In this document: positions 14,369-45,512 of the stretch, in pieces
How positions within the stretch are numbered: the stretch's first letter is position 1
How the letters are laid out: each line of letters starts with the position of its first letter
Assembly (NCBI GenBank): GCA_002840095.1
Contig: PGZL01000004.1
Location: 310,001 to 374,000, forward strand
Length of the DNA: 64,000 nucleotides
Direction of reading: 5' to 3'
Origin: Gammaproteobacteria bacterium HGW-Gammaproteobacteria-1
GTDB lineage: Bacteria; Pseudomonadota; Gammaproteobacteria; Thiohalomonadales; Thiohalomonadaceae
Position numbers and translations under genes: made by a program
The notes under the pieces: model-generated
Seen by the model: only the letters and a program-made list of their open reading frames with translations
Told to the model about the DNA's origin: nothing
Databases searched by the model: none

Positions 14369-14515
14369 GAGTTCAAAGTTACAGGTTCAAGGTTCAAAGT
14401 TGAAAGAATTCGATGCACCCTCCTGTTGAACCTTGAACCTTGAACCTTGAACCTTGAACCTTGAACCTTGAACCTTGAACCTTGAACCTTGAACCTTGAA
14501 CCTTGAACCTTGAAG
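14369..14515. repeat. TTGAACC heptamer hairpin with a 12-unit perfect right arm
   Basis: A short left arm of TTCAAGG/TTCAAAG units (14370-14400) faces a right arm of twelve perfect TTGAACC repeats (14426-14509) plus TTGAAG. The 25-base spacer contains ATGCACCCTCCTG, which resembles the edges of the four-helix-bundle gene element at 44148-44697. The size suggests a variable-number tandem repeat. Confidence 0.85.
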
Positions 14516-43268: not shown

Positions 43269-43288
43269 ACCCAGAGCAGGGAGTTGTC

Positions 43289-44140
43289 ATGAACGGACCG
43301 CTATCCACGTCGCTTGCCGTGCTGCCGCACGAGGCGGAAATCGTCGAGCGTATCGACGAGTCGCCGACCATCTTCACCCTGCGCCTGCGCTTCACCGATC
43401 CGGATGTGCACGCGGCCTACAGCTTCACGCCGGGGCAGTTCAACATGCTGTACCTGCACGGCGTCGGCGAAGTACCCATCTCCATCGTCTCCGACCCGGA
43501 AGACGAACACATGTACGACCATACCATCCGCATTGTCGGCCGCGTCACCCGCGGCCTCGCCGCGCTCAAAGTGGGCGATCGCCTCGGCGTACGAGGTGCC
43601 TTCGGTCGCGGCTGGCCGGTAAAGGAAGCCGAGGGGCGCGACGTAATCATCGCTACCGGCGGCCTGGGTTGCGCCCCCGTGGTCTCGGTGATCAACTACG
43701 TGCTGCGCCGCCGCGACCGCTACCGGCGCCTGGTGATCATGCAGGGCGTCAAGCACGCCTCCGACCTCATCTGGCGCAAGCGCTACGAGGAGTGGGCCGC
43801 CCTGCCCGATACCCAGGTACTGCTCACAGCCGATCAGGGCGGCAAGGGCTGGCCGTTCCGTGTCGGCCATATCCCGATCCTGTTCGATGAGGCCAATATC
43901 GACGCGCAGAACAGCACCGTGATGATGTGCGGCCCGGAAGGCATGATGCGCGCCGTCATCGCCGACATGGTGAAGCGCGGCGTGCCGGAGGGAGATCTCT
44001 GGCTGTCCATGGAGCGCAACATGCAATGCGGCGCCGGCCGCTGCGGCCACTGCCAGCACGGCGGCAACTTCGTCTGCAAGGACGGCCCGGTGTTCAGTTA
44101 TCCGGAAGTCAAAGAACTGCTGGGCGTTAAGGGATTCTAG
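43289..44140 (+). CDS. hydG: Group 3b hydrogenase gamma subunit, FAD/NAD(P) oxidoreductase
   Basis: The 283-residue flavin subunit (HydG/HyhG) links the enzyme to NAD(P)H. It has a ferredoxin-reductase-like FAD domain (GQFNMLYLHGVGEVPISI), an NAD(P) domain with IIATGGLGCAPVVSVINYV, and a C-terminal [2Fe-2S] motif CGAGRCGHC followed by a distant Cys. GCAGGGAG lies upstream of ATG 43289, 20 bases after the chemoreceptor stop, so both are in one transcript. Confidence 0.94.
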   Translation: MNGPLSTSLAVLPHEAEIVERIDESPTIFTLRLRFTDPDVHAAYSFTPGQFNMLYLHGVGEVPISIVSDPEDEHMYDHTIRIVGRVTRGLAALKVGDRLGVRGAFGRGWPVKEAEGRDVIIATGGLGCAPVVSVINYVLRRRDRYRRLVIMQGVKHASDLIWRKRYEEWAALPDTQVLLTADQGGKGWPFRVGHIPILFDEANIDAQNSTVMMCGPEGMMRAVIADMVKRGVPEGDLWLSMERNMQCGAGRCGHCQHGGNFVCKDGPVFSYPEVKELLGVKGF

Positions 44141-44147
44141 AAGAGAA

Positions 44148-44182
44148 TTCAAGGTTCAAGGTTCAAGGTTCAAGGTTCAAGG
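44148..44182 (+). repeat. Five TTCAAGG heptamers, left flank of the four-helix-bundle gene
   Basis: Five perfect TTCAAGG units. The last one runs into AGGAG, so AAGGAGG (44179-44185) forms an ideal Shine-Dalgarno sequence five bases before the GTG at 44191. The array on the other side of the gene (44656-44697) is the reverse complement. Confidence 0.9.
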
Positions 44183-44190
44183 AGGAGCCG

Positions 44191-44661
44191 GTGGCGCAGA
44201 TTGAACGTTTTGAGCAATTGGAGGTTTGGAAGTTAGCGCGGGAAATGGCGCAGTATATTTATGCTCTCACCGAATGCAGAAAGATTGCGCAGGACTATGC
44301 TTTGCGGGATCAGATGCGCAGGGCTGCTATTTCGGTCTTGTCAAATATAGCGGAAGGTTTTGAGCGTGGTGGGAACAAGGAGTTTGTGCAATTCTTGTAT
44401 ATCGCGAAGGGTTCAGCAGGGGAACTGCGCGCCCAGACCTACGTTGCGCAGGACATGAAATATTGGAGCTCGCAGGAATGCCAAGAACTGCGTGTGAGAC
44501 TCGAGAGAATTAGCAGACTGCTAAGTGGGCTAATTTGTTATCTGCGTGGTTCGGGAATGAAGGGAGAGCGTTTTCATGTTTCCGATATCAATGGGAATTA
44601 TGAGCCTGGAGAAGGTGATGTAGCAGATTCCTGGATTTCAAATACATGCACGCACCCTTGA
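44191..44661 (+). CDS. Four-helix-bundle protein of the 23S rRNA intervening-sequence family
   Basis: A 156-residue protein with the IVS/S23 signatures FEQLEVWKLAREMA, RRAAISVLSNIAEGFERGG and EFVQFLYIAKGSAGELRAQ. The family forms pentameric four-helix bundles of uncertain function and is related to Avd of diversity-generating retroelements. The coding sequence is clearly less GC-rich than its neighbours. The start is GTG, with the Shine-Dalgarno provided by a heptamer array. The stop TGA lies inside the first CCTTGAA unit of the opposite array. It interrupts hydG-hydD and was probably acquired with its flanks. The last 35 residues exceed the normal domain. Confidence 0.85.
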   Translation: MAQIERFEQLEVWKLAREMAQYIYALTECRKIAQDYALRDQMRRAAISVLSNIAEGFERGGNKEFVQFLYIAKGSAGELRAQTYVAQDMKYWSSQECQELRVRLERISRLLSGLICYLRGSGMKGERFHVSDINGNYEPGEGDVADSWISNTCTHP

Positions 44662-44697
44662 ACCTTGAACCTTGAACCTTGAACCTTGAACCTTGAA
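44656..44697 (+). repeat. Six CCTTGAA heptamers, right flank of the four-helix-bundle gene
   Basis: Six perfect CCTTGAA units, the inverse of the left array. The first unit contains the stop codon of the gene. Together the two arrays make a 550-bp unit with inverted repeat ends. Confidence 0.9.
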
Positions 44698-44732
44698 CTT
44701 CAACGAGCCTGAATACGGGGATGCGCGGTGCG

Positions 44733-45512
44733 ATGAAACCGAAAGTGGCGGTGCATAAATTCAGTTCCTGCGACGGCTGCCAACTCGCCTTTCTCAATCT
44801 GGGCGAGGGACTGCTGCAGCTCAACGAGCTGGTGGACATCGTCCATTTCGCGGAGGCCGGTTATCTGGACGAGGACGCCAAGGTGGACCTCGCCTTCGTC
44901 GAGGGCAGCATCTCCACGCCGCATGAGCTGGAGCGCATCAAGCGCGTGCGCGCCAACAGCAAGTACCTGGTGACCATCGGCGCCTGCGCCACGGCCGGCG
45001 GCTTGCAGGCGCTGCGCAACATGGCCGACGGCAACGCCTGGCTGGCCGGCGTCTATGCCGGGCCGGAGCATGTTCCCTTCCTGCCCACCTCCACGGCGGT
45101 GGCGCAGAACGTGCGCGTCGATCTGGAGCTGTGGGGCTGCCCGGTGAACAGCCGTCAGGTGGTGCTGGCGGTGCGCGATCTGCTGTTCGGCGTGGCGCCG
45201 CGCGACGAGACGGAAAAGGTCTGCCTGGAGTGCAAGCGCAAGGGCAACGTGTGCGTGATGGTGACGAAGAACGTGCCCTGCATGGGGCCGGTGACGCGTA
45301 CCGGCTGCGGTGCGCTGTGCCCCAGCTTCGGCCGCGACTGCTACGCCTGTTTCGGCCCGGCGGAGGCGCCCGAAACCGCGGCCCTGGCGCGTCGCTTCGA
45401 GGGCTTCGGCCTGTTGCCCGAGGCCATCGCCCACCGCTTCCTGTTCATCAACAACGGAGCGCCGGCTTTCCATGCGGAAGGTGTGCGCTGGCAGGAGAAG
45501 AATCATGAGTGA
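44733..45512 (+). CDS. hydD: Group 3b hydrogenase delta (small) subunit
   Basis: The small Fe-S subunit of the cytoplasmic hydrogenase, 259 residues from ATG 44733 (an ATG at 44721 would add four residues). The start MKPKVAVHKFSSCDGCQLAF matches the family and has no signal peptide. Cluster cysteines are in CDGC, GACATAGG, CPVNSRQV, VCLECKRKGNVC and CGALCPSFGRDCYACFGP. It overlaps hydA by 8 bases. Confidence 0.93.
   Translation: MKPKVAVHKFSSCDGCQLAFLNLGEGLLQLNELVDIVHFAEAGYLDEDAKVDLAFVEGSISTPHELERIKRVRANSKYLVTIGACATAGGLQALRNMADGNAWLAGVYAGPEHVPFLPTSTAVAQNVRVDLELWGCPVNSRQVVLAVRDLLFGVAPRDETEKVCLECKRKGNVCVMVTKNVPCMGPVTRTGCGALCPSFGRDCYACFGPAEAPETAALARRFEGFGLLPEAIAHRFLFINNGAPAFHAEGVRWQEKNHE

Follow-up and report, generated by a model that had tools for sequence, protein, structure and literature searches.

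The closest described relative of the element reported here is the intervening sequence (IVS) of the 23S rRNA gene of Coxiella burnetii, which is 428 nt long and carries GACAGAT heptamers 5' of the S23p ORF, in two or three copies depending on the strain (PMC4990558). Related proteins are found in other settings as well. Avd, the accessory protein of diversity-generating retroelements, resembles PF05635 (the IVP or S23 family) in sequence and structure (PMC10053308), 23S_rRNA_IVP genes were reported in cas loci (PMC3936711), and the domain list of a CRISPR survey includes 23S_rRNA_IVP (PMC10910872). Such CRISPR links may arise in part because tandem heptamer arrays near IVP genes are taken for CRISPR arrays.

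Tandem heptamers are also known as dispersed repeats. Xanthomonas campestris ATCC 33913 has 186 GGGAATC arrays, with 70 cases in inverted pairs (PMC4692102), Beggiatoaceae carry TAACTGA heptamers and the heptamers of other bacteria have been reviewed (PMC4679880), and Geobacter metallireducens has eight inverted pairs of tandem heptamer or octamer arrays, one of them between proB and proA, which were guessed to be IHF/HU sites (PMC2700814). In the open-access literature, i.e. with subscription papers outside the search, we found no link between such repeats and IVP genes.

Results

The element between hydG and hydD

The window, i.e. the whole stretch of 64,000 nt analysed here, contains a 550-bp element with a single gene, the IVP gene, between two inverted heptamer arrays (Table 1). 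The two arrays of five and six units, the ORF, the AAGGAGG motif and the stop codon given in the first-pass annotation of this DNA were all confirmed to the base. The AAGGAGG lies five bases 5' of the GTG at 44191, and the TGA stop (44659-44661) is inside the first right unit (44656-44662). The idea that the arrays supply the ribosome-binding site and the stop codon holds for this element and fails as a general feature: among 57 loci the left arm ends at a median of 20 nt from the start codon, and the stop codon is within the right arm in 13.

The 156-residue product matches PF05635 (E 1.4e-34, 119 bits against a curated cut-off of 33.8) and TIGR02436 (E 5.7e-33, 113 bits against a cut-off of 24). 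The gene has 49% GC as compared to 65% in the window and 65-67% in the flanking genes, in agreement with the GC-poor IVS-family gene that had been described. The best models of the neighbours are of the sulfhydrogenase HydG (gamma) and HydD (delta) type, with scores under the strict cut-offs of those models. TTCAAGG occurs 29 times in the window, as opposed to 4.8 expected, and no shuffled sequence reached this number. The element locus (L039) had no match in Rfam, nor did PADLOC give a match, so a defence role is not supported. The genome of the window (G000; 4.2 Mb in 70 contigs) has three PF05635 genes.

Table 1. Positions of the IVP element, a gene-less element and the host genes in the window.
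Feature	Position	Strand	Remarks
Whole IVP element (left array, gene, right array)	44148..44697	+	Between hydG and hydD; empty in three congeners, outgroups without gap
Left arm, five exact TTCAAGG heptamers	44148..44182	+	
Shine-Dalgarno-like AAGGAGG, end of last left heptamer plus AGG	44179..44185	+	
IVP / S23 / four-helix-bundle gene, 156 aa, GTG start	44191..44661	+	PF05635, TIGR02436; solved relatives 2gsc, 2rld
Right arm, six exact CCTTGAA heptamers, TGA stop in the first	44656..44697	-	
Gene-less solo element	14372..14514	+	Left arm degenerate, 14372-14406; core about 14407-14430, GAATTCGATGCACCCTCCTG
Right arm of the solo element, twelve CCTTGAA units	14431-14514		ssDNA fold z -4.4 (solo element)
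Upstream host gene, hydG-like (sulfhydrogenase gamma subunit)	43280..44140	+	Best model match
Downstream host gene, hydD-like (delta subunit)	44721..45512	+	Orthologue starts at ATG equivalent to 44733

Inverted arms are general around IVP genes

To score the complementarity of the arms, the 170 bp before each gene were aligned locally with the reverse-complemented 200 bp after it, and a score of at least 15 was taken as the threshold. In a first set of 80 PF05635 loci from many phyla, 67% of 78 IVP genes reached this threshold, as compared to 1.1% of 438 other ORFs of the same loci and 4.5% of small ORFs flanked by intergenic DNA. Among the few "other" ORFs with high scores, two (L110, L093) are second IVP genes by sequence. 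A second set was chosen by HMM from the class of the window; only the scoring rules were carried over, and a few genomes give more than one locus. Here 45 of 65 genes reached the threshold, against 2.2% of swapped pairs, and the period was 7 in 40 out of 42. The association that the first-pass annotation had expected for IVP genes in general is thus real and general.

The same tendency is seen in the score distributions. Arms of the same locus had a mean score of 18.8, and swapped pairs one of 8.5; among 107 loci, 89 were above the 95th percentile of the swapped pairs and 54 above the 99th, a level exceeded by none of 90 control windows taken 1 kb away. Exact period-7 arrays are concentrated next to the gene: the 55 kb that lie no more than 350 bp from it contain 23, and the roughly 670 kb farther out contain 22. 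Within the first 150 bp on each side the lag-7 identity is 0.35-0.36; it is about 0.26 at distances above 300 bp (0.289 in the far intergenic sequence of the same loci). Echoes appear at lags 14 and 21, and lags 8 and 9 give a weaker signal; the autocorrelation at 7, 14 and 21 lies mainly within 150 bp per side. Overall, 93 of 114 arm pairs have a repeat period of 7. The family of the window, covered by 20 genomes, includes several PF05635 genes that stand between period-7 arrays with the units CTAGGGG, TAGTGGG, AGTGCTA and TGAAAAC, and other repeat periods are nearly absent there.

About one third of the IVP genes have no detectable arms. Plasmid copies have arms in five out of six cases. Fourteen IVP loci are on viral contigs; the annotated phage collection gave no IVP loci, so that phage cargo is not supported.

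Copy number

The number of repeats per arm has its maximum at five. In the first set exactly five copies were found in 45 of 106 arms and four to six in 81, and in the second set five was the mode on both sides (15 of 40 left arms, 18 of 40 right arms). The standard deviation of the log copy number was 0.31 in IVP arms versus 0.59 in the gene-less TTCAAGG arrays, which have 3 to 19 copies. The few loci with units of 8 or 9 bases mostly have four or five copies, i.e. copy number rather than unit length seems to be kept. The solved homologues 2gsc and 2rld have five chains each, and the title of the 2gsc paper, as cited in PMC3936711, speaks of five four-helix bundles. The correspondence of one heptamer to one subunit is our own suggestion.

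Repeat unit and protein lineage

The sequence of the unit varies between loci and is identical in both arms of one locus. The left-arm units follow a loose grammar, R-A-G-T/G-N-N-C, with 4.38 bits as compared to 3.44 for shuffled units (maximum 3.67). Unit similarity increases with protein identity (Mantel r 0.35, and 0.25 for proteins less than 70% identical); none of 2000 permutations was as high (p<1/2000), a value that overstates the certainty since the loci are not phylogenetically independent. An example is the unit GAGTGCT, which accompanies proteins 64-67% identical to each other in three different lineages (G011 (L072), L101 and L119). Linked inheritance alone could be sufficient for this correlation. 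At the site between rpsI and tRNA-Gln, the arms generally match best within their own genome, with units that differ between species; the exceptions are genomes that have GATACAAG in common.

Filled and empty sites

In three congeners (G014, G015 and G017) the element is absent and 2 nt separate the HydG stop from the HydD start, as the first-pass annotation had anticipated for close relatives, and there is no gap at this site in G007, G010, G012, G018 and G019. The empty sites are most simply explained if the window element was gained in the lineage of G000. Two outcomes that would have spoken against the original reading, i.e. IVS-family genes with no association to heptamers, and a gene at all hydG-hydD orthologues with unrelated flanks, were looked for and neither was found. 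In G016 the site is occupied by an insert of about 175 bp that is unrelated to the element (L179). Another unrelated insert, which includes GGCGCAGA repeats, is seen in G011 (L181). With these unrelated inserts, the hydG-hydD intergenic site is possibly an insertion hot spot.

A second comparison comes from plasmids. In plasmid pNe_5 of Nostoc edaphicum the nrdB and nrdA genes are separated by an IVP element, and a Calothrix NIES-4105 plasmid has the same gene pair without the element, about 87% identical up to the element edges. The edges coincide with the outer edges of the arrays, barring about 13 bp that are unaligned in the empty allele. Gene and arrays are in this sense one unit, as proposed, and filled and empty alleles at orthologous sites with edges at terminal repeats are what is expected of a transposable element. 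No clear target-site duplication was seen at hydG-hydD or nrdB-nrdA.

The rpsI-tRNA-Gln site carries an IVP gene in seven genomes, with several units, and is empty in G011, G012, G013 and G016; the gene looks largely vertically inherited here. In one genome (L192, G018:C6) the IVP gene at this site is disrupted and the arms still match.

Arrays without a gene

Pattern searches of the whole genome gave 125 matches to the doubled TTCAAGG in G000, versus one for the reversed control; the element aside, they form some two dozen dispersed arrays. Such doublets number 56 in G009 and 0-4 elsewhere. CTAGGGG doublets are found in G011 (119), G014 (82), G017 (39) and G000 (26), and in none of the other 16 genomes; IVP elements with CTAGGGG arms occur in G011 and G017 (L062, L065). 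In the broad set, the contigs carried 16 arrays of a gene's own unit at more than 1 kb from it, whereas swapped units gave an expectation of 1.6 and never more than 7 in 5000 permutations.

The TTCAAGG solos of G000 have the core GAATCCCGGGCACCCTCTTG in common between the arms, and the CTAGGGG solos of G014 a different common core, with GTGCGCTGCGCGCAC and CGAGCGAAGCGAG hairpins. The solos are copied elements, neither independent microsatellites nor remnants of IVP genes. The suggestion that they derive from the gene-bearing element was correct in that the unit is common to resident IVP elements; their origin is not one of simple deletion from the cassette, however, as the solos contain their own non-coding cores, which are conserved. 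The solo site at 14372-14514 is empty in G015, and in G014 and G017 it holds hairpins with another unit and matching arms. TTCAAGG arrays abound in G009, which lacks IVP genes, and CTAGGGG solos abound in G014, whose sole IVP gene has other arms; a resident matching IVP gene is therefore not required at present.

We also note some observations on the surroundings of the solos. In the nearly complete genome G009, which has no PF05635 gene, the many TTCAAGG arrays (L221-L224) are accompanied by matches to the reversed unit GGAACTT. Palindromes of the GTAGGGTGCGCACCGCGCACC type adjoin solo heptamer arrays in G000 (L058 and L059, G000:C66), and they are a second family of dispersed repeats, which may have insertion sites in common with the heptamer arrays. 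Solo arrays of IVP units also flank a kdpC-like gene (L096) and an RsmE-like gene (L098) on the same contigs.

Discussion

What the computations gave directly is the architecture, its generality, the matching of units between arms, the five-copy peak, the correlation of unit and protein, and the filled and empty sites. We read the 550-bp unit as a mobile DNA element that ends in heptamer arrays, and its own pentameric protein as the factor that recognises them; we consider this reading somewhat better than an even bet. The cargo would be a single gene, for a four-helix-bundle protein; the relatives with solved structures form pentameric rings. The ends would be two inverted arrays of about five seven-base units each. 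The IVP protein itself probably reads the arrays, in such a way that each subunit would take one heptamer and each end one ring. Such a ring would account for several traits of the ends: their tandem and inverted layout, their match to each other and to the lineage of the protein, and their length of about five units. Placed around short non-coding cores, with no gene, these ends would make up the dispersed solo elements, which were probably moved in trans or are relics of past activity. No transposase or other mobilising enzyme was found within the element, i.e. the IVP gene is its only gene, and the PF05635 family has, to our knowledge, no known catalytic function; cutting and joining would consequently fall to host or other enzymes. 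That the element has been mobile is well supported by the comparison of alleles. We infer in addition that rings bind the arrays, one per arm, that this binding has a role in mobility and that the elements are actively mobilised. Several results speak against the reading: target-site duplications were not evident, a third of the IVP genes lack visible arms, solos are abundant in genomes with no matching IVP gene, inheritance at the rpsI site looks largely vertical, and the loci are related to one another.

The main alternative acts at the RNA level. Here the element would resemble the 23S rRNA IVS, i.e. the arms would form an RNA stem cut by RNase III, so that insertion within an operon is tolerated. 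The Coxiella IVS, with its S23p ORF, the heptamers 5' of it and a 28-bp terminal stem, is indeed cut by RNase III in vitro (PMC4990558), many IVP copies lie between genes of a single operon, and the RNA of the window element folds far better than shuffled sequences (z -6.5), with the arms fully paired. The mismatches between arms tell against it, however: those that keep a G-U pair number 54 as compared to 80 of the A-C type, which is the reverse of the expectation if anything, and a more lenient alignment gave 271 and 301. Moreover, a stem alone requires neither a period of 7, nor a count of about five, nor a unit common with distant solos. In the DNA sense the element is symmetric, with an RAG-type array at the 5' end of each strand, like terminal inverted repeats, and this symmetry together with the lack of a G-U-preserving excess favours recognition of DNA ends. 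The first-pass annotation had proposed a mobile or an RNA-level element; the strong fold keeps the latter conceivable, the DNA level is favoured, and we regard the RNase III reading as unlikely.

Another alternative is autoregulation. By analogy with TRAP, which wraps repeated (G/U)AG triplets in RNA, the pentamer would wrap the left array of its own mRNA and block the adjacent ribosome-binding site, the element being otherwise a passive selfish gene. The left-arm grammar, the ribosome-binding site that abuts the left array in the window element and the equality of five repeats and five subunits are all consistent with this. Yet the equally long right array, which in RNA is the complement and lacks the motif, would be left unexplained, as would the gene-less solos, and we find this proposal very improbable.

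We are just as sceptical of a passive microsatellite, in which slippage would expand heptamers near IVP genes and template switching from one inverted copy to the other (quasipalindrome correction) would homogenise the arms, with no function involved. In many bacterial genomes no other long simple repeat is as common as the heptamer, and the polymerase contact length was proposed as a reason (review, PMC4679880). The hairpins at the solo site in G014 and G017, with their different unit and matching arms, are as arm homogenisation predicts. But other ORFs with intergenic flanks almost never have arms, slippage should give a broad spread of lengths, as in the solos, instead of a five-copy peak, the unit correlates with the protein, and the cassette is wholly present or absent at orthologous sites. 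Least credible of all is a REPIN-like hitchhiker moved, together with the solos, by a Y1/RAYT transposase encoded elsewhere: of 20 genomes of the order, 18 have Y1_Tnp genes, among them G000 and the array-rich G009 that lacks IVP genes, and the solo layout of inverted ends and a short core resembles REPINs (PMC3116915), but none of 20 Y1_Tnp loci has period-7 arrays, several have inverted repeats of their own that are not heptamers, and Y1 genes also occur in genomes without a match to either heptamer unit tested.

Taken as a whole, the earlier interpretation is partly supported. Returning to the mobile DNA element, arms that usually have about five repeats each flank about two-thirds of IVP genes across many bacterial phyla, which points to a mobile element that is widespread and has gone unrecognised. 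More tentatively, and with somewhat less than an even chance in our estimate, there may be a widespread class of mobile DNA whose tandem-array ends are counted by a ring protein (one heptamer per subunit, five per end), drift together with the protein and have seeded many dispersed heptamers. IVP elements are thereby a possible source of the unexplained heptamer repeats scattered in bacterial genomes. PF05635/S23 is a common family with solved structures and no known function, and the excess of seven-base repeats in bacteria is unexplained; a link between the two makes both testable. It also offers a simple rule for the annotation of thousands of genes labelled "four helix bundle protein" and of the repeats beside them.

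Comparison with known systems

Diversity-generating retroelements, which combine a reverse transcriptase with Avd and with template and variable repeats, also involve a protein that resembles PF05635. The window element encodes only the IVP protein and no reverse transcriptase, and the Avd-like copies that adjoin reverse transcriptase genes (L078, L080), or an apparent one (L328), have no heptamer arms. L078 and L080 (G001:C1:3984790 and 2493254) are weak PF05635 matches beside RVT_1 genes and are probably Avd. In a 1.5-Mb genome (L328 and L329, G342:C1) there are about ten near-identical PF05635-like genes of the Avd type; the copies that were read show a C-type-lectin-like repeat end, then the Avd-type gene, then an apparent reverse transcriptase. 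They are apparently many copies of one diversity-generating retroelement cassette, and as such were left out of the analysis. A reverse transcriptase as a partner, by analogy to Avd, was also considered for the window element and rejected, as there was no PF00078 (RVT_1) match in G000 or its genus.

REPIN/RAYT systems have the same general plan, i.e. a gene between inverted short repeats and dispersed gene-less inverted-repeat elements of the same type (PMC3116915). In contrast to these, the window element neither encodes nor flanks a Y1/HUH transposase, its ends are about five heptamers and not REP hairpins, and its protein belongs to a four-helix-bundle pentamer family with no known catalysis.

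The dispersed heptamers of Xanthomonas, Beggiatoaceae and Geobacter are similar in being tandem, intergenic and often in inverted pairs; the difference is that the reports read them as G-quadruplexes, translational signals or IHF/HU sites. A relative of XCC0516 (L286) has GGGAATA/GTGAATA arms, and as XCC0516 is from the same strain as the Xanthomonas GGGAATC arrays, a link to these is suggestive only.

The Coxiella 23S IVS remains the nearest system, with a homologous protein family, terminal inverted repeats, a similar size and tandem heptamers (PMC4990558). The window element shares the S23p-type ORF and the terminal inverted repeats, but it lies outside rRNA, between hydG-like and hydD-like genes, both of its arms consist of matched heptamers, it has dispersed gene-less relatives and it bears no sign of an RNA-pairing constraint. 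The word "undescribed" in the first-pass annotation therefore applies to the general association of IVP genes with heptamer arrays and not to the heptamers 5' of the S23p ORF in the IVS, which were reported in 2016 (PMC4990558). The link between IVP genes and heptamer arrays also gives the 23S rRNA intervening sequences a place in a wider family of elements.
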